Below, piece after piece: positions 21,669 to 33,903 of a DNA stretch of 40,766 nucleotides. The position numbers and the translations under genes were made by a program. Within the stretch, counting starts at the first letter, position 1. Each line of letters begins with the position of its first letter. Under the pieces are notes generated by a model. That model was given only the letters and a program-made list of their open reading frames with translations, had not been told where the DNA came from and did not search any database. Origin of the DNA: an uncultured Pirellula sp. (lineage in GTDB: Bacteria; Planctomycetota; Planctomycetia; Pirellulales; Pirellulaceae); assembly GCA_903920425.1 (NCBI GenBank), contig CAIXME010000762.1:1-40766 (forward strand). The letters run 5' to 3'.

Positions 21669-21962
21669 ACCTGAGTGCCTGCTTGGGTATCAGGTCCAAA
21701 GCTTATCTCACATTCGCTCGGATAACAGCATTTCACATTCTGTTTTTCACACAGGTTATCGCAATCGCGGCGACTTTGACGATTGTTCGGATAGAATCGG
21801 CACCCCGGTGCTGGCTTTCGGAGAGCATCGCACACCCAACGAATCCATGGCTGGAATGTACGCGATGGCGGTCTTCTTAGTCTCCCCCCGGCGAGCAGCG
21901 TGCAAACTTCATGCAAGAGACGACCCTTCACCCTTTGCCCTGCAGTGAATACACTGCTGCAT

Positions 21963-23009
21963 ATGAGGCCACTGCTGAGACTATGGGGAAAGAAAAAAGG
22001 CGGACGAATGTCCGGCTGGTGGTTCGTAGGCTCGCTCGGTGAAGCCCTGTTTTTCGCCTCGTTTTTCTTGGTGGGCGTTCTCTGTTTTACAACGATAGTC
22101 GCTTGGCAATTCCTATCTCCCAACACTCAAGTTGTCCGGATAGGCTACGGGTTCTGGTTGTTGACGACGGTGTCCGCTGCGTTCATCGTGATGGGTGCTG
22201 TTGGTTTTTGGTACCGCGTCCTGAAAGTCGCCACTAGCGATGAACATCGCGAAGTGATTGCAAAGCACGGGATCGTCCCCCGTCCTAAACAGCAACTAAG
22301 CAAAATCGCATTCCCTCCGAGCGTGCCGCTTCTTCACCCGTTTACAGATAGTCCGGGCGCAAAACTCGCATATCGATTACCTTGCGAGTGGGCTGGTACT
22401 GGTTCGCTTATCGCCATTGGACTCTTCGCAATGTCCTGGAATGCCATGATTGCTGTCTTTCTGGTGTTGGCCATCAGCGGTTTCCTCCAGGGCAACATTC
22501 AATACCGTTTGCTCCTCCTGATCATTCCCGGAATCTATATCGGTTTGCGATCTGGCCAAATGTTTTTTAAGGCCTACGTCCAGGCGATAGGAATCGGCTC
22601 TACGACCGTTGAGATCGAGGACTTACCACTCGTACCAGGCAAAACATACCAATTGCTTTTGGTGCAGTATGGACGTTTGGTCATCAAGAAACTTTCGATT
22701 CGACTAGTATGCGAAGAGGAAAGCACTTATCATTTTGGAACGGATATTCGAACCGAACGACAGGTTGTTCTTCGTCAAGAGATTCTAGAGCAAGGGCGTT
22801 CGCGAATCGATTGGGGACGACCGTTAGAGTTGGAATGCCAAGTCTCCATTCCGTTAGACGCAATGCATTCGTTTCAAAGTCTACATAATGCGATTCACTG
22901 GAAGATTATTGTCGAAGGAGAGGCGAACCGATGGCCATCGTACTGCCGAAGTTTCCCCGTAGTGGTTTACCCACTCGCTCGCAGCAATCCCGTCAGTCTT
23001 CCGTCATGA
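21963..23009 (+). CDS. Membrane protein with C-terminal arrestin/Ig-like beta-sandwich region
   Basis: Hydrophobic segments (FFASFFLVGVLCFTTIVAWQFL; LLTTVSAAFIVMGAVGFWYRV; AVFLVLAISGFLQ), then a beta-rich soluble part (DLPLVPGKTYQLLLVQYGRLVIKKLSIRLVCEEESTYHFGTDIRTERQVVLRQEIL...WKIIVEGEANRWPSYCRSFPVVVYP). Start uncertain: 21900, 21963 or 22008. Confidence 0.7.
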   Translation: MRPLLRLWGKKKGGRMSGWWFVGSLGEALFFASFFLVGVLCFTTIVAWQFLSPNTQVVRIGYGFWLLTTVSAAFIVMGAVGFWYRVLKVATSDEHREVIAKHGIVPRPKQQLSKIAFPPSVPLLHPFTDSPGAKLAYRLPCEWAGTGSLIAIGLFAMSWNAMIAVFLVLAISGFLQGNIQYRLLLLIIPGIYIGLRSGQMFFKAYVQAIGIGSTTVEIEDLPLVPGKTYQLLLVQYGRLVIKKLSIRLVCEEESTYHFGTDIRTERQVVLRQEILEQGRSRIDWGRPLELECQVSIPLDAMHSFQSLHNAIHWKIIVEGEANRWPSYCRSFPVVVYPLARSNPVSLPS

Positions 23010-23377
23010 TCCGATTGCTTGGCTTACAACCAACATACATGCCTCACGATATTCTCGAGTTTGAATATCGGGTTTCGAACATTGCCCAAAACGGAATTTC
23101 CGCTGTCGAAGTCTCCGTGGTGTGGCTGACCGAAGGAAAGGGAACCGAAGACCTCGGCGTTCATTTTTTCCAACGATTGACCGGTAACTCGCTCGCTGCT
23201 TCAGACTGGTCTATCCCACAATTGGTACACGTCCCACTTCCAACTTCCCCGCTCTCATACGAGGGAAAGCTTCTCAAAATCTCGTGGTGCGTTCGCGTGC
23301 GTTTCTACTTGAATGATGGGACCGAACTGGTTGCCCAGCAACCCTTCTACCTCGGCACAATCACTCGCGAAGTCTAA
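22931..23377 (+). CDS. Arrestin/Ig-like beta-sandwich protein coupled to the upstream membrane protein
   Basis: VMIRLLGLQPTYMPHDILEFEYRVSNIAQNGISAVEVSVVWLTEGKGTEDLGVHFFQRLTG...GKLLKISWCVRVRFYLNDGTELVAQQPFYLG. An alternative start at 23006 would give an ATGA stop/start overlap with the upstream gene. Confidence 0.65.
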   Translation: MAIVLPKFPRSGLPTRSQQSRQSSVMIRLLGLQPTYMPHDILEFEYRVSNIAQNGISAVEVSVVWLTEGKGTEDLGVHFFQRLTGNSLAASDWSIPQLVHVPLPTSPLSYEGKLLKISWCVRVRFYLNDGTELVAQQPFYLGTITREV

Positions 23378-23423: not shown

Positions 23424-24377
23424 CTACGCAACCGTACCACGACGGGAATAGATCTGGCAGTCCTGCAGTTCCGTTATCAGCTTGGACACGGCGGTACGCA
23501 CCCAAGAGAACGTGCTCACTTGGGGTGTCGCGTAACTCAACACCGAGCCGTAGGATTCACGGCTAGGCGCCGGGTCGACCGGTTTTAGATTGGCCAGATA
23601 AGCATCCATCGACACAGCCGACACGCCCTTTTCCAACCATTCAAACATGGCACTGCCCGAATGCAGATCAGCCGAAAGTAGCAACTTCGCAGGCGACCCT
23701 GCATCGCTAATCGCCTTGCACGCTTTTTCTACCGAGAACTCCAAGGGGGCCAAATCCCGACCGCCTGCCGAGTTGAATTCGGATCGCACGTGGCAAAGCA
23801 ATGTGAGGAAATCAAAACCACAGTCCAACAGAAACCTCACATCTTCGTAAACAGCACCTGGACAAACAGCTGCTCCGATGACGCACTTCCCAGCGGAAAG
23901 AACTTTGAGGCACTCCACTTTTTTACCAAGCTGCTCGTAGTCCGAAATTTCCACTGGAACATTCGGAGTCCAACGAGCCAACCGCGATCCTGGTACGGAA
24001 TGAAACGGCAGCCCGTACATTTGGAACTCGACAGCTGCAGCATGCTCTACCAAATCCACATCGATTGGCTCGTCGATTTGCAGCGGGACAATTCGTTGTG
24101 ATCTGATCTTGGGAGTAGATCCCGCGATCTGCTGCAATTGACGTTCATCGGTCTTACGCCCACTGACCCACGCGGTTCCCAGCATATGCAATTCTGGTAT
24201 CAATTTCTCCTGAACGCTGGGAGTTAATGCGCTATCCAAAGTCAACCGTGTAAAGAGTGGCGAGTCCAATCGTAGCCCTGGTCCAGACAAAGCAGGGATG
24301 CTGCAACACAAAGGACTGAGATCCATTGATGAGCGTGTAAGCGGATCAAGGCGAGACATGATTGGGGTGCTTTGCAT
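23424..24377 (-). CDS. Degenerate glutamate-synthase FMN-domain-like (TIM-barrel-like) protein
   Basis: VIGAAVCPGAVYEDVRFLLDCGFDFLTLLCHVRSEFNSAGGRDLAPLEFSVEKACKAISDAGSPAKLLLSADLHSGSAMFEWLEKGVSAVSMDAYLANL resembles the second half of GltB-type FMN barrels but lacks an evident GGTGAAP or 3Fe-4S cysteine motif. Lies downstream of a GXGXG gene. Confidence 0.55.
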   Translation of the reverse strand: MQSTPIMSRLDPLTRSSMDLSPLCCSIPALSGPGLRLDSPLFTRLTLDSALTPSVQEKLIPELHMLGTAWVSGRKTDERQLQQIAGSTPKIRSQRIVPLQIDEPIDVDLVEHAAAVEFQMYGLPFHSVPGSRLARWTPNVPVEISDYEQLGKKVECLKVLSAGKCVIGAAVCPGAVYEDVRFLLDCGFDFLTLLCHVRSEFNSAGGRDLAPLEFSVEKACKAISDAGSPAKLLLSADLHSGSAMFEWLEKGVSAVSMDAYLANLKPVDPAPSRESYGSVLSYATPQVSTFSWVRTAVSKLITELQDCQIYSRRGTVA

Positions 24378-24442
24378 GATTCTAACAATGGTCCAACTGC
24401 GTCGTGGGAAGCGATTAATGGTCTCGAGTGGTACGTCGTCGA

Positions 24443-25141
24443 TTAACTATCTGCGTGTACAGGTCTGTAGGCACGAAACTCTTTACCTGTCGATTTGATT
24501 CCGGATTTGAGCATGAGCAAACCAATCTTCAATCGATCAGGTTCTCGCAGACGCTGCTCCTCAATATCGGGACTAATGGACTCCGCTTCACCGCGGATAT
24601 AAATTGTCCCCCCCTTCATCCCTTTACCGAGTCCGGCACCCGCTGCGCCACCGATAATCAATGTACCGCTTTGCATCCCGAGTCCCGCATTGGCATCGAC
24701 CGACCCGCGAATAACCACATCGGCACCCTGCAACCCCAGAGCAACACGAGCACCAGCATTTCCGTAGATGGTAATCAGTCCGCCTGCCCCTAATGCCCCG
24801 ACGCAGGCCTTGGCATGCCCCCGCACGACCAATACGCCAGATTGAATGGAGTGCCCAAAAAAACAACCGACGTTGCCATCGACATTGCACTCTCCATCAC
24901 CAAAGGAACAAAGACCGAAATCGCCGATCTCTCCCTGAATGGTAACTTTGCTGACGTGCCTGATTCCAGCTCCGATATGATCTTGTCCCGAGGCTCCCTG
25001 AATGGTCACTTCGAGCGATTCGCTATCGCCCTGATCCGAAACCATCGCGGTCCGGTTACGAATCTCGGCGAGGATCGCCGTTGGAGTCAAGGAACCGAGA
25101 TGAAAAACTAACGACGGATCCGAGGTATTCACGATCGACAC
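24443..25141 (-). CDS. Stand-alone GXGXG-domain protein (GltB domain 3 / GlxC / MgsB-like)
   Basis: Repeated right-handed beta-helix motifs: IQGEIGDFGLCSFGDGECNVDGNVGCFFGHSIQSGVLVVRGHAKACVGALGAGGLITIYGNAGARVALGLQGADVVIRGSVDANAGLGMQSGTLIIGGAAGAGLGKGMKGGTIYIRGEAESISPDIEEQRL. Confidence 0.85.
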   Translation of the reverse strand: MSIVNTSDPSLVFHLGSLTPTAILAEIRNRTAMVSDQGDSESLEVTIQGASGQDHIGAGIRHVSKVTIQGEIGDFGLCSFGDGECNVDGNVGCFFGHSIQSGVLVVRGHAKACVGALGAGGLITIYGNAGARVALGLQGADVVIRGSVDANAGLGMQSGTLIIGGAAGAGLGKGMKGGTIYIRGEAESISPDIEEQRLREPDRLKIGLLMLKSGIKSTGKEFRAYRPVHADS

Positions 25142-25206: not shown

Positions 25207-26151
25207 TTAACTCACTTCGGCAGATTTCACGAAGCCATTCTGCATTCCCAGCCAAACTAGTAAACCTTTTTGCAAATGCATTCGGTTGGCGGCTTGCGGA
25301 AAAACAATACTCTGATCGGAATCGATCACGTCATCGGTAATTTCAAGCCCCCTTCGTGCTGGCAAGCAATGCAAAACCTTGCAGTGCTCCGGAGCCCGTT
25401 TTAGCATGGCGGAATTGATCTGGTAGGGCCCAAACGATGCTGCTCGCTCTTTCGCTTCCGCCTCCTGCCCCATACTGGTCCAGACATCGGTGTACAGGAA
25501 GTCCGCATCGCCAACCATGGATCCAATGTCAGTCCCTTGCTGGAAGTCCAATTCGCCGTAGTGCTTTCGAACACGCTCGACAAGCGACAAATCGATGTGG
25601 TATTTCGGCGGCCCCACCAATCGGAATTTCATGCCGCAGATCGCAGCGCTTTTGAGCAGCGACCGAGCGACGTTGTTTCCATCTCCAACAAAGGTAACCT
25701 GACGCCCTTTGAGATCGCCACCACACATTTCGCGCATGGTCATCACATCCGCCATGGCCTGGCAGGGATGGGACTGATCGGTCAGACCATTGATCACGGG
25801 CAATACGTTGTGCGAGGCCAATTCGTCTACGGTCGATTGCGAGATGGCGCGGCAGACTACGAAATCGCAATACTCGCCTAACACTCGCACGAAATCAGCG
25901 ATGGTTTCACGTTCCCGCCAACCAACATCATTGGTCAAATAGATGGCTGCTCCGCCCATCTGGATCATGCCCGCCTCAAAGCTGACCCGGGTGCGCAAAC
26001 TGGCCTTTTCGAATAGCAGCGCCAAACTGCGGTTTTTGAGTAAGTCCGGACGGTGGCCAGCCGATAAATTTCGCTTCAACGAATCGGCTAAATTCAAGAC
26101 ATCGTGAAACTCATCAATGCTCAAATCAAAAAGGGAACGCAAGTGCTTCAT
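25207..26151 (-). CDS. argF: Ornithine carbamoyltransferase
   Basis: MKHLRSLFDLSIDEFHDVLNLADSLK, FEKASLRTRVSFEAGMIQMGG, DQSHPCQAMADVMTMRE, FVGDGNNVARSL, LHCLPARRGLEITDDVID. Internal Met at 26151 preferred because argB ends at 26153. Confidence 0.95.
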   Translation of the reverse strand: MKHLRSLFDLSIDEFHDVLNLADSLKRNLSAGHRPDLLKNRSLALLFEKASLRTRVSFEAGMIQMGGAAIYLTNDVGWRERETIADFVRVLGEYCDFVVCRAISQSTVDELASHNVLPVINGLTDQSHPCQAMADVMTMREMCGGDLKGRQVTFVGDGNNVARSLLKSAAICGMKFRLVGPPKYHIDLSLVERVRKHYGELDFQQGTDIGSMVGDADFLYTDVWTSMGQEAEAKERAASFGPYQINSAMLKRAPEHCKVLHCLPARRGLEITDDVIDSDQSIVFPQAANRMHLQKGLLVWLGMQNGFVKSAEVS

Positions 26152-26152
26152 G

Positions 26153-27118
26153 TTATGTTGGACTGATGCGCGTAGCGGCAGACTGTCGGCTTTGCACGAT
26201 CTCTGTCCCAACTCCGGCGGTAGTGTAGATTTCTAGTAATAAGGAGTGACGTAGCTGGCCGTCAATGATGTGTACTTTGCCAACGCCGCGATTGAGAGTA
26301 GATAGGCACGCTTCTACTTTGGGGATCATTCCTCCCGCAATCACACCCTCTTCGATTAGCTGTCGGGCCTCTGCGGCTGTAAGAGAATGAATCACGCTGG
26401 CTGGATCGTTCTTGTCGCGTCGAACCCCGTTGACATCGCTGATGAAAATGAGCTTCTCAGCTCCCAAGGCTTCGGCGACTGCCATCGCTGCTGTATCCGC
26501 GTTGACGTTGTATTTCTGCCCATTCTCATCGATACACATCGACGGGATGATGGGGATCTGCTCCGTGTAAGTCAAATTGTCGATCGGTTGTCGATCCACA
26601 CGCGTAACTTGCCCGACAAAACCGAGATCCAAAGGCTCACCCCCTGGCTCATCTAAAAGCAACTTCTCACCGAAGAGGACATTGGTGGTGCGGAAGTTTA
26701 GATTCATGGCGCGCCCGCCAAGTCGCTCAATCTCATTCGTCAAATGCTCATTGAGCTCATACGCGAGTACTTCTTCGACGATTCCAAGCGTTTTGGCATC
26801 GGTCATGCGACGCCCCTTGATCCAGACTGGCTCGATCGCAGCAGCTTCCATCGCTTTGTTAATCGATGGGCCGCCTCCATGCACCACCACGGGTCGCATC
26901 CCAACCGATTCCATAAAAATGATATCGAGCAACGTATGTCGCATCGCATCGGGATTCCCCATCAGAGAACCACCGAGCTTGATCACTGTCGTCTTTCCGC
27001 GGAATCGTCGAATCCATCCCATCGCCTCGATGAGCGTGTCCGCTTTTGCGATCGCTTCCTTTTGCTCGTTCACTTTGCAATCCTGGGTCAATAAATTAAC
27101 AACGCCGACACAAATCAC
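26153..27118 (-). CDS. argB: Acetylglutamate kinase
   Basis: [146 protein letters not shown]. Confidence 0.96.
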
Positions 27119-30548: not shown

Positions 30549-30954
30549 ACAACAGCATCTACGTGAACTATAGCCGGTCTACGCGATCGTGGAAAGCTTG
30601 GTAAAGCGCTTTTTTGACCAAATTGCAGATATTTCACAACCCAGGGTGCGAAAACTATTTTTGGACTGTTCCGCTCAAGTTTCTTGTTTTTGAACTCGAA
30701 TTTCTCGTAGGTACTGCCCGAATCAGTCGATGAGGACAGAGGAAACGAGTTTGTTCGAGATGGAATTCGGACAGGCATTTTGCGGAGGGAGCCGCGGTAG
30801 CAAAGTTTGCGCGAGGCACCTATTCCAAACTGTCTGCCTTATATTCTTTGGGCATACGCGATTTTCAAACTGTCGAAATTGGGTGAGTTTTAGTAAACTC
30901 CAACGACTTAGATGGTCGCGATGGCAGTCGAGGCGGGGTTTATTCGTCCGCCGA

Positions 30955-33903
30955 ATGAAGTCGAAAGGCGATAGCGTGCAACAACAGCCGGGTAGTGGAA
31001 AAACATTTTACGACCGATGGGGATGGCTAATCCTCATCGCCAGCTTGTCGTTTGTGCCCTTCGCCTTTTACGGTGCTGGACTGGCCGTCCAAAGCAATGT
31101 GAACAAGGTTGAGGACTGGTTGCCCAAGTCTTTCGCTGAGACTGGTGAGCTCTCGTGGTTCCGCAAGAATTTTCCATCGGACCAGTTCATTTTGGTGAGC
31201 TGGGAAGGCTGCAAACTCGGCGAAGACCCATCTGCAGGGATCGAACAAGATGACCCCCGAATTGCCAGACTCGCATCCTTGGTTGCGGCCGAGAACGGCG
31301 ATGCAAATGATGTCGATGCGTTAGAAGCCAAGAAGTATTTCAAAGGTGTATCGACAGGTCGACAACTTTTAGACAAATTGACAACGGGTTCACATCCGTT
31401 GACACACGCGGAAGCAGTCGAGCGTCTGAAAGGATCCATCTTAGGTCCCGACGGCAGGCAAACCTGCGTCGTCGTTTCGTTGGATCCAGCAACGACCGCG
31501 AAGCTCAAGCCTATCTTGGGTCATGGCCAGCGACGTATTTTTCGAGACAATATTCCTCAAGGGGTGTTGCGCCGACTCATTGCCAAGGCTGGCATAGCAG
31601 AAGACCAATTACACCTTGGCGGTCCTCCCGTTGATAACATTTCTATCGATGAGGAAGGGGAAAAGACACTAGTCCGCCTAGCCGGCTTTTCTGGCCTTCT
31701 TGGACTCGGGCTTGCTTGGTGGTCACTTCGCAGCGTCGTTTTGACAATGATTGTGTTCGCATGCTCCGTCACCAGCGCTGCAGCATCGCTTGCAATGATC
31801 TGGGCCACCGGTGAAACCGTGGATGCGATTGTGCTTTCCATGCCTTCGTTGGTTTACGTTTTGTCGATTTCCGGCGCAGTGCACTTCATTAACTATTACA
31901 AAGACGCAGTCCAAGAGGGTGGGCTTCATGGTGCGACCGAACGCGCCGTGATCCACGCTCTCAAGCCAGCTATTCTTTGCTCGACGACAACTGCGCTGGG
32001 TCTTCTCTCGCTATGTGCTTCCGAACTCACACCGATCCGAAAGTTCGGTTTGTACTCTGCGCTCGGTATGGTGATCTTGGTTGTGATCCTATACCTGCTG
32101 TTGCCCGCGGCGTTGCACATTTTGCGCTACGCAAAGAAGTGGGTCATTGAGCCGAGCCTCAATGAAAAGAAATCCGAAAAGGCAGTTTCGCACCACGATC
32201 ACGAAACACCTGGAGAACGGCTCTGGGCGATTGTTGCATCGTTCATTGTTCGAAACCACTACGGCGTGGCAGCCGCATGCGTCCTGGTCGTTGGCGTTAT
32301 TGGTTTCGGGTTAGCAAAGACGCGAACTAGCATCGACTTGCTTGAACTGTTCGACTCACGAGCCAAAATCCTCCAAGACTATCGATGGCTAGAAAAACAC
32401 CTTGGTATGCTCGTGCCATTGGAGATCGTGATCGAATTCGATCCGCAAAGCATTGCCCGTTCCGACGAAGAAAAGAGCCAGAACCCAGGCGAGGGCGCCG
32501 CTGACGATGCAACCCGTCTGACGTTTCTAGAGCGGATGGAAACAACCGTCCAGATTCAAGAAGTAATCAAAAAGAATTTCGGCGAAACCGGTTCTGGAAT
32601 CGTAGGTAGAAGCCTCTCCGCAGCTACGTTTGCGGCAAGCCTTCCAACGACGGGCTTGAGCACGCAAAAGTACTTTGAACGCGTTGCGTACAACAGCGCG
32701 TTGGAACGCAATCGCGACGAGTTTATGAAATCTGGCTTTCTTCGCGTCGACCCAGACACGGGCGCAGAGTTATGGCGAATCAGCTTGCGAGTGGCTGCCT
32801 TCCAAGGAGTCGACTACGGGCAATTCGTTAACGAACTTCGAGACAAGGTTTCTCCAATCATCGAAGCTCACAGCGATCGAGTTCGAATCCTCAAGCAACT
32901 ATCCGCCTGGGGAGGAGAACCGAAGTTTGCTGGTAAAGGGGTCATGATATGGGATCCTTCTGAAAAAACAGACGCCGCCGGCATGTCCTCGGCTTCCAGA
33001 GTACGCTCCGACGAGATCACCTCATTGCTGAGCAAAGCTCGCGTCAAAGTAAAGCGAGTTTCCAACGATCCAGGCTCCATGCCTTTGGTTGATCTGCAGA
33101 AGCTTAGCGATTTCGACGCGATCGTTCTTACTGGTGCGTTTTCAGACGCCGAAATCGGCACTCTGGGCGTAACGCTAGGCAAAGTCATCGACCTCCAAGC
33201 CAACGACCCAAGCTCTCCCAAAAAGTGGGTCTCCTCGACGTATACAGGTGTTGTGCCGATCGTCTACAAAGCTCAACGCGCACTTCTTCAAAGCTTGGTC
33301 GAAAGCACCATTTGGTCCTTCATGACCATCACTCCTTTGATGATGTTTGTATCGAGAAGCTTCCGGGCAGGTCTCGTCGCAATGATACCGAACGTACTTC
33401 CTGTGATCGTTATCTTTGGTGCAATGGGCTGGCTAAACATCCCTATCGACATCGGGTCGATGATGACCGCAAGTATCGCATTGGGCGTTGCCGTGGACGA
33501 TACGATTCACTTCCTATCGTGGTACCGTGTTCAGCTAAAAGAAATCAAAGTGCGGGATGAAGCGATCATATCGACGTACAAACGTTGTGCGACGCCCACT
33601 CTACAAGCAGCTTGCATTAGCGGTATCGGCCTCTCGGTATTTGCCTTCAGCACCTTCACACCGACTCAGCGTTTCGGCTGGTTGATGTTGACGATCTTGG
33701 TGGCTGGCGTGGTTGCGGAACTGATTTTGTTGCCAGCAATTTTGGCAGGGCCTCTCGGAAAAGCGTTCGAACCCTCCCAGTCGCGGCACAATGTGGTTTC
33801 GCGATTCATGCTGATCATTCGCTACGAACTGCGACGCCGATTTGATCGCAAATCGCGTTTGGCGCCCGTTTCGTCCGATGCCGATCTACAAAGCGCTGCC
33901 TGA
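30955..33903 (+). CDS. MMPL/RND superfamily permease
   Basis: Two TM bundles with RND-type motifs (LSMPSLVYVLSISGAVHFINYYKDAVQEGG; ALGVAVDDTIHFLSWYRVQL). Likely start 30955 (MKSKGDSVQQQPGSG); the track ORF starts at 30730. Confidence 0.92.
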   Translation: MKSKGDSVQQQPGSGKTFYDRWGWLILIASLSFVPFAFYGAGLAVQSNVNKVEDWLPKSFAETGELSWFRKNFPSDQFILVSWEGCKLGEDPSAGIEQDDPRIARLASLVAAENGDANDVDALEAKKYFKGVSTGRQLLDKLTTGSHPLTHAEAVERLKGSILGPDGRQTCVVVSLDPATTAKLKPILGHGQRRIFRDNIPQGVLRRLIAKAGIAEDQLHLGGPPVDNISIDEEGEKTLVRLAGFSGLLGLGLAWWSLRSVVLTMIVFACSVTSAAASLAMIWATGETVDAIVLSMPSLVYVLSISGAVHFINYYKDAVQEGGLHGATERAVIHALKPAILCSTTTALGLLSLCASELTPIRKFGLYSALGMVILVVILYLLLPAALHILRYAKKWVIEPSLNEKKSEKAVSHHDHETPGERLWAIVASFIVRNHYGVAAACVLVVGVIGFGLAKTRTSIDLLELFDSRAKILQDYRWLEKHLGMLVPLEIVIEFDPQSIARSDEEKSQNPGEGAADDATRLTFLERMETTVQIQEVIKKNFGETGSGIVGRSLSAATFAASLPTTGLSTQKYFERVAYNSALERNRDEFMKSGFLRVDPDTGAELWRISLRVAAFQGVDYGQFVNELRDKVSPIIEAHSDRVRILKQLSAWGGEPKFAGKGVMIWDPSEKTDAAGMSSASRVRSDEITSLLSKARVKVKRVSNDPGSMPLVDLQKLSDFDAIVLTGAFSDAEIGTLGVTLGKVIDLQANDPSSPKKWVSSTYTGVVPIVYKAQRALLQSLVESTIWSFMTITPLMMFVSRSFRAGLVAMIPNVLPVIVIFGAMGWLNIPIDIGSMMTASIALGVAVDDTIHFLSWYRVQLKEIKVRDEAIISTYKRCATPTLQAACISGIGLSVFAFSTFTPTQRFGWLMLTILVAGVVAELILLPAILAGPLGKAFEPSQSRHNVVSRFMLIIRYELRRRFDRKSRLAPVSSDADLQSAA

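Follow-up and report, generated by a model that had tools for sequence, protein, structure and literature searches.

What do the two small genes that follow argB and argF in an uncultured freshwater Pirellula encode, and does their placement behind arginine genes tell what they do? The window, i.e. the whole stretch of 40,766 nt that was analysed, is a contig (C762) of a 6.6-Mb draft genome that is 94.6% complete. An earlier note on this DNA had placed genes for a GXGXG beta-helix protein and an FMN-barrel-like protein directly downstream of argB-argF, and the open reading frames were indeed found there on the minus strand (Table 1). Among named relatives, the nearest ones with a barrel gene are metagenome-assembled genomes, which bear the labels Pirellula, Planctomycetaceae or Planctomycetota and in many cases come from lakes; it is from these labels that the genome family is taken to be Pirellulaceae. 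Two overlapping plus-strand ORFs without Pfam match (21900-23009, apparently encoding a membrane protein, and 22931-23377) are convergent with the barrel gene, and a 1057-aa transporter of the MMPL/RND family (PF03176) is encoded at 30730-33903 on the plus strand.

Table 1. Coordinates of the gene pair and of the arginine genes in the window.
Feature	Position	Strand	Details and evidence
Predicted degenerate FMN-type TIM-barrel protein, GlxD/MgsC-like by descent	23424..24377	-	317 aa, ATG start; ORF, AlphaFold2 model, Foldseek against PDB, hhalign, family-wide orthologues
GXGXG beta-helix protein, GlxC/MgsB-like	24443..25141	-	232 aa, GTG start; PF01493 (6.8e-10), hhalign to MgsB, AlphaFold2 pLDDT 90, orthologues
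argF, ornithine carbamoyltransferase	25207..26211	-	TIGR00658 (3e-99) and PRK00779 (4e-107), above cut-off
argB, acetylglutamate kinase	26153..27118	-	TIGR00761 (3.6e-66), above cut-off; overlaps the argF start as called

The GXGXG protein passes the gathering cut-off of PF01493 (39.2 versus 32.5 bits) and aligns end-to-end with MgsB (hhalign, E 8.2e-35, 219 columns), the comparison set being the GXGXG subunits of complete amidotransferase-GXGXG-barrel-glutamine-synthetase operons (MgsABC-GmaS-like; L140 and others). Its AlphaFold2 model matches FwdC/FhcC and GltS structures in Foldseek. FwdC/FhcC, subunit C of formylmethanofuran dehydrogenase / formyltransferase-hydrolase, is likewise a GXGXG beta-helix and provides the best PDB matches by sequence and by fold; the corresponding family TIGR03122 gives 72.4 bits, below its cut-off of 130.65. 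An assignment to FwdC/FhcC was nevertheless rejected: the FhcC-like protein of the same genome, encoded apart from the pair on contig C570, aligns over 107 columns of the repeat region only, whereas the match to MgsB is stronger and full-length. Likewise, the GXGXG proteins of the pair score 66-107 bits with an MgsB seed in phmmer and at most 49 bits with an FhcC seed. In a tree they group with the MgsB type, apart from GltB; because of the long FhcC branch the finer order is unsure, and the tree does not establish a single origin. An in-frame stop in the GXGXG gene of G006 proved to be apparent only, as it sits upstream of the real ORF. Judged by sequence, the protein is a GXGXG subunit of the MgsB/GlxC type, as had been proposed.

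The 317-aa protein matched no Pfam or NCBIfam family in searches up to E 1. This includes PF01645 (Glu_synthase), whose gathering cut-off it does not reach and whose list of matches in its own genome does not contain it. A search for relatives with the single sequence returned none and an alignment used as query retrieved them; phmmer against the PDB returned designed repeat proteins and, weakly, PdxJ, all of which were dismissed as noise. The AlphaFold2 model, computed from an alignment of 19 relatives (mean pLDDT 77, pTM 0.79), shows alternating strands and helices, and in Foldseek it was matched to the FMN alpha-hydroxyacid oxidases (glycolate, mandelate and lactate oxidase) and to IMPDH, the best E being 1e-8 (glycolate oxidase: E 1e-8, probability 1.00, TM about 0.5). 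A 28-row barrel profile also retrieves IMPDH and hydroxyacid oxidases from the PDB by sequence. On this model, the protein is a member of the FMN/IMPDH-like TIM-barrel fold class.

To place the barrel within this class, its profile was compared by hhalign with PF01645 proteins drawn from related genomes. It matched stand-alone FMN glutamate-synthase-like proteins (99.1%, 1.6e-18, 304 columns) and the MgsC/GlxD set (98.4%, 5e-15, 342 columns), and the match to the GltB barrel was not significant (1.7%); an IMPDH-like protein reached 8.5%, and none of 12 unrelated neighbour families exceeded 0.6%. These E-values come from single pairwise comparisons, and the contrast between sets weighs more than the values. 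In other genera the barrel still carries a C-terminal tail resembling that of the canonical proteins. The barrel belongs to the glycolate-oxidase/IMPDH/GltS class and is closest to MgsC/GlxD and to the stand-alone FMN glutamate-synthase-like proteins. The resemblance to GltB, GlxD and MgsC proposed earlier is thus borne out for MgsC/GlxD and not for GltB, and a derivation from the GltB domain was rejected on the profile score.

The barrel has lost both FMN motifs (the N-terminal one and the one for the FMN phosphate) as well as the substrate loop and the Fe-S Cys cluster. Counts in 51 distinct degenerate barrels and 20 canonical ones agree with the missing GGTGAAP-type motif and Cys cluster reported before: the GG(T)(G/A/S)(A/G) flavin motif is present in 0/51 versus 20/20, MSFG(A/S)xS in 0/51 versus 18/20, a specific Cys-Pro-Gly cluster pattern in 0/51 versus 14/20 and a looser Cys pattern in 3/51 versus 19/20, and none of the 51 relatives has the canonical substrate-loop motif. 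Asp occupies position 258, at the end of beta8, in 49 of the 51 (96%); the MgsC-type profile shows the Gly of 'SIG' there. Since the flavin and Cys motifs are lost and Asp replaces Gly at 258, canonical binding of the FMN phosphate is unlikely; FMN may conceivably be bound in some other mode. The strongly kept residues are D189, G251, R158, D258, W136 (94%) and P141. They could form a new active site, and D189, G251 and R158 align with residues that canonical proteins have too.

A search for a class II glutamine amidotransferase of the GlxB/MgsA type found none, whether close to the pair, elsewhere in the genome (94.6% complete) or in the genus, in line with the earlier remark that no such partner is visible. 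The search returned only weak partial matches to long glutamine-dependent proteins in the genus, and strong relatives occur only in G026 and G034, which belong to other families of the sample. The genome retains GltB, truncated by the end of its contig, and a stand-alone FMN glutamate-synthase-like protein of 530 aa. The latter (L134:1389-4199, contig C90) lies next to an ORF resembling asparagine synthase, of which the synthase domain alone was detected.

The stand-alone FMN glutamate synthase family (PF01645) provides the best profile match of the pair's barrel, including the C-terminal tail seen in other genera. Its members are single proteins of about 450-690 aa and, unlike the pair, retain a GGTGAAP-type motif and the Cys cluster; some are fused to Rieske, CDGSH-like or rubredoxin domains. 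Such a protein in G182 (L139:1088-2917) has an N-terminal Rieske domain and one in G115 (L133:673-2451) has CDGSH-like motifs recognised by eye, which suggests alternative electron inputs in Pirellulaceae. A 687-aa ORF of G042 (L141:1735-3798) combines rubredoxin, a canonical glutamate-synthase FMN barrel, rubrerythrin and a rubredoxin-like domain; it may be a genuine fusion or result from a join in the assembly. In the MgsABC-GmaS-like operon of G092 (L140:234-4692), the barrel keeps GGTAAT and lacks the Cys cluster ('DDWHQGADPAGITTQ'); it is possibly an intermediate in the same kind of decay.

The distribution of the two genes was analysed in 241 Pirellulaceae genomes, the barrel being scored as present at E 1e-20 or better. 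It was found in 110 genomes (about half) from 15 genera, and GXGXG proteins of the pair's own type were found in 109 of these 110 and in none of the genomes without barrel; the single exception is an 83%-complete assembly. Coordinates show the two genes linked in 86 genomes and unlinked in 23. Both are missing from three members of the genus, and the barrel is absent from many genera. In an order-wide sample of 297 genomes, only weak barrel matches, on proteins of canonical length, were obtained outside the family. Ten barrel-less genomes have full-length GXGXG matches of 168-188 bits, which were read as the MgsB/GlxC type, with neighbours verified in G092, G120 and G214. No pair-bearing genome among the 241 also has an MgsB-type match. 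This exclusion fits a replacement of one by the other, a reading that is given little weight because few genera carry the MgsB type.

Pair genes that are adjacent frequently share a short overlap or are separated by just 1-2 bases, an arrangement that would suit translational coupling. Comparisons of close species give a dN/dS of 0.11-0.33 for the barrel and 0.07-0.22 for the GXGXG gene, against 0.04-0.09 for argF; these ratios indicate that both pair genes are functional and under purifying selection, and that they evolve faster than argF. Chance does not explain this conservation: dozens of species have both proteins, and their dN/dS is far below 1. Since about half of the sampled Pirellulaceae genomes keep the pair, whether the genes are adjacent or apart, it is a real module inherited together rather than an arginine enzyme, and nothing argues more strongly for a joint action of the two proteins than their retention in genomes where the genes are unlinked.

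The arginine genes do not share this pattern. The order argB-argF-GXGXG-barrel, with short gaps or overlaps, is kept in nine genomes, each a different species of one genus (the window and L029-L036). None of the terminator-like sites in the interval from argF to the pair is both on the genes' own strand and better than chance, and in this subclade argF and the pair are likely one transcript. In other members of the genus topA precedes the pair; in four loci the barrel gene directly follows gnd (6-phosphogluconate dehydrogenase) and the GXGXG gene is elsewhere, and in three loci the GXGXG gene of such split pairs lies beside MoxR and DUF58 genes. Neighbours in other genera include genes for MurJ with a glycosyltransferase, for purine nucleoside phosphorylases, for SHMT with a response regulator, or for a phosphoesterase; in the loci examined from these lineages argB-argF do not adjoin the pair and the neighbours have no arginine theme. 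The conservation of gene order thus extends beyond the strain to nine genomes but not to the rest of the genus or to the other genera examined. The earlier use of the arginine operon as a functional clue does not hold, with argB-argF beside the pair in these nine genomes only and the pair split in 23, and as a general explanation it was rejected, the placement being that of one lineage. A role in nitrogen metabolism, which had been read from the operon, gets no support from context; because neighbours outside the nine genomes carry no arginine theme, it is only a possibility that comes from ancestry. Neighbours did not indicate a regulatory target in any lineage examined.

Among known systems, MgsABC (subunit roles in PMC6237917, Table 3) and GlxBCD also have separate genes for the GXGXG subunit (MgsB/GlxC) and the barrel (MgsC/GlxD), in the same order as in the pair. 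The GXGXG protein is homologous to theirs over its full length and the barrel by profile. They differ from the pair in that the latter has neither a class II amidotransferase gene (MgsA/GlxB) nor gmaS, and its barrel is about 100 aa shorter than MgsC/GlxD and lacks the FMN, substrate-loop and Cys motifs. In architecture the pair varies a known theme: it comprises two of the three modules of a split glutamate synthase, without the barrel's recognisable catalytic signatures, and is kept in 15 genera of a single family. Searches of the open-access literature yielded no description of it.

Domains 2 and 3 of GltB have the barrel and GXGXG folds, respectively, and judging from GltS, GlxBCD and MgsABC the GXGXG helix of the pair is expected to pack against the barrel. 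GltB shares these two folds with the pair, although its barrel is not a significant profile match and the genome has a separate GltB. We infer from the co-inheritance and the GltS architecture that the two proteins may interact physically, packing together as GltB domains 3 and 2 do. The genes would encode two subunits of a GXGXG-barrel complex descended from GlxC-GlxD / MgsB-MgsC, in which the better conserved GXGXG protein with its C-terminal 'EE-R-REPDRLK...KEFR' tail would be the core and the fast-evolving barrel its partner. The barrel would have lost flavin redox chemistry, and the complex would serve a non-redox purpose, most likely as a scaffold or as a regulator that binds a ligand. 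The repurposed glutamate-synthase-like unit proposed at the outset thus stands in its combination of a GlxC/MgsB-like GXGXG protein with a degenerate GlxD/MgsC-like barrel, but not in its arginine context. We are confident that the pair is a co-inherited, cofactor-less, GltS-derived one. The whole reading, a complex derived from the GlxC-GlxD/MgsB-MgsC part of a split enzyme and acting as a non-redox regulator or scaffold, is probable to a lesser degree, and that the pair works as a regulator or scaffold is, taken by itself, a nearly balanced matter. Somewhat more tentatively, the pair could be a pseudo-glutamate-synthase heteromer, specific to Pirellulaceae, that is now a metabolite-sensing regulator or a new non-redox enzyme; the two remaining GltS-type subunits would then have stayed together while at least 15 genera radiated, the flavin, the Fe-S cluster and the amidotransferase having been lost before.

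The main rival, because Asp258 and Trp136 are so strongly kept, is a new non-redox enzyme in which the FMN-less barrel uses D258, and perhaps W136 or R158, with the GXGXG protein as a structural or channelling subunit; a lyase, isomerase or hydrolase acting on an amino acid or amide would be examples. The Asp in place of the canonical Gly, the barrel-class fold of the model and the purifying selection on the barrel are in its favour. Yet beyond D258, W136, R158 and structural Gly, Pro, Ala and Asp residues hardly anything is conserved (mean column identity of 25% in the family alignment, A4), D189, G251 and R158 are also present in canonical proteins, and so fast a divergence within one family is rare for enzymes; an enzyme of this kind is rather unlikely. 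It is less probable still that the pair joins the glutamate synthase of the cell itself, be it GltB or the GltS-like FMN protein of 530 aa, as accessory or regulatory subunits that form a decoy replacing its GXGXG and FMN domains. The genome retains both candidate partners, and hetero-oligomers of GltS are known, one of them with glutamate dehydrogenase (PDB 7mfm), but the nearest homology is to MgsC/GlxD-type and stand-alone proteins rather than GltB, and a link to gltBD is absent from the loci examined.

A module specific to arginine or nitrogen and working with ArgB/ArgF would account for the tight gene order of the nine species and for the lack of a convincing terminator behind argF; given the neighbours found in other lineages, we regard it as highly improbable. 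That the pair is a functionless decaying remnant could be read from the fast divergence, the lost catalytic motifs and its absence from many genera and from three members of its own genus. This reading is largely refuted by the frames that stay open in about 110 genomes, by the dN/dS of 0.07-0.33 and by the co-retention in 109 of 110 genomes even when unlinked, and it can hardly be right.

Members of the pair are probably annotated as hypothetical, as the barrel proteins belong to no Pfam or NCBIfam family, and the module has been overlooked. Cultivable carriers probably exist, since complete genomes, such as that of the relative G006, are among those that carry the pair. If the GXGXG and barrel proteins do form a non-redox complex derived from a split glutamate synthase, a multi-subunit redox enzyme would have been turned into a cofactor-less complex and kept in about half of the sampled genomes of a bacterial family that is large and abundant in the environment.
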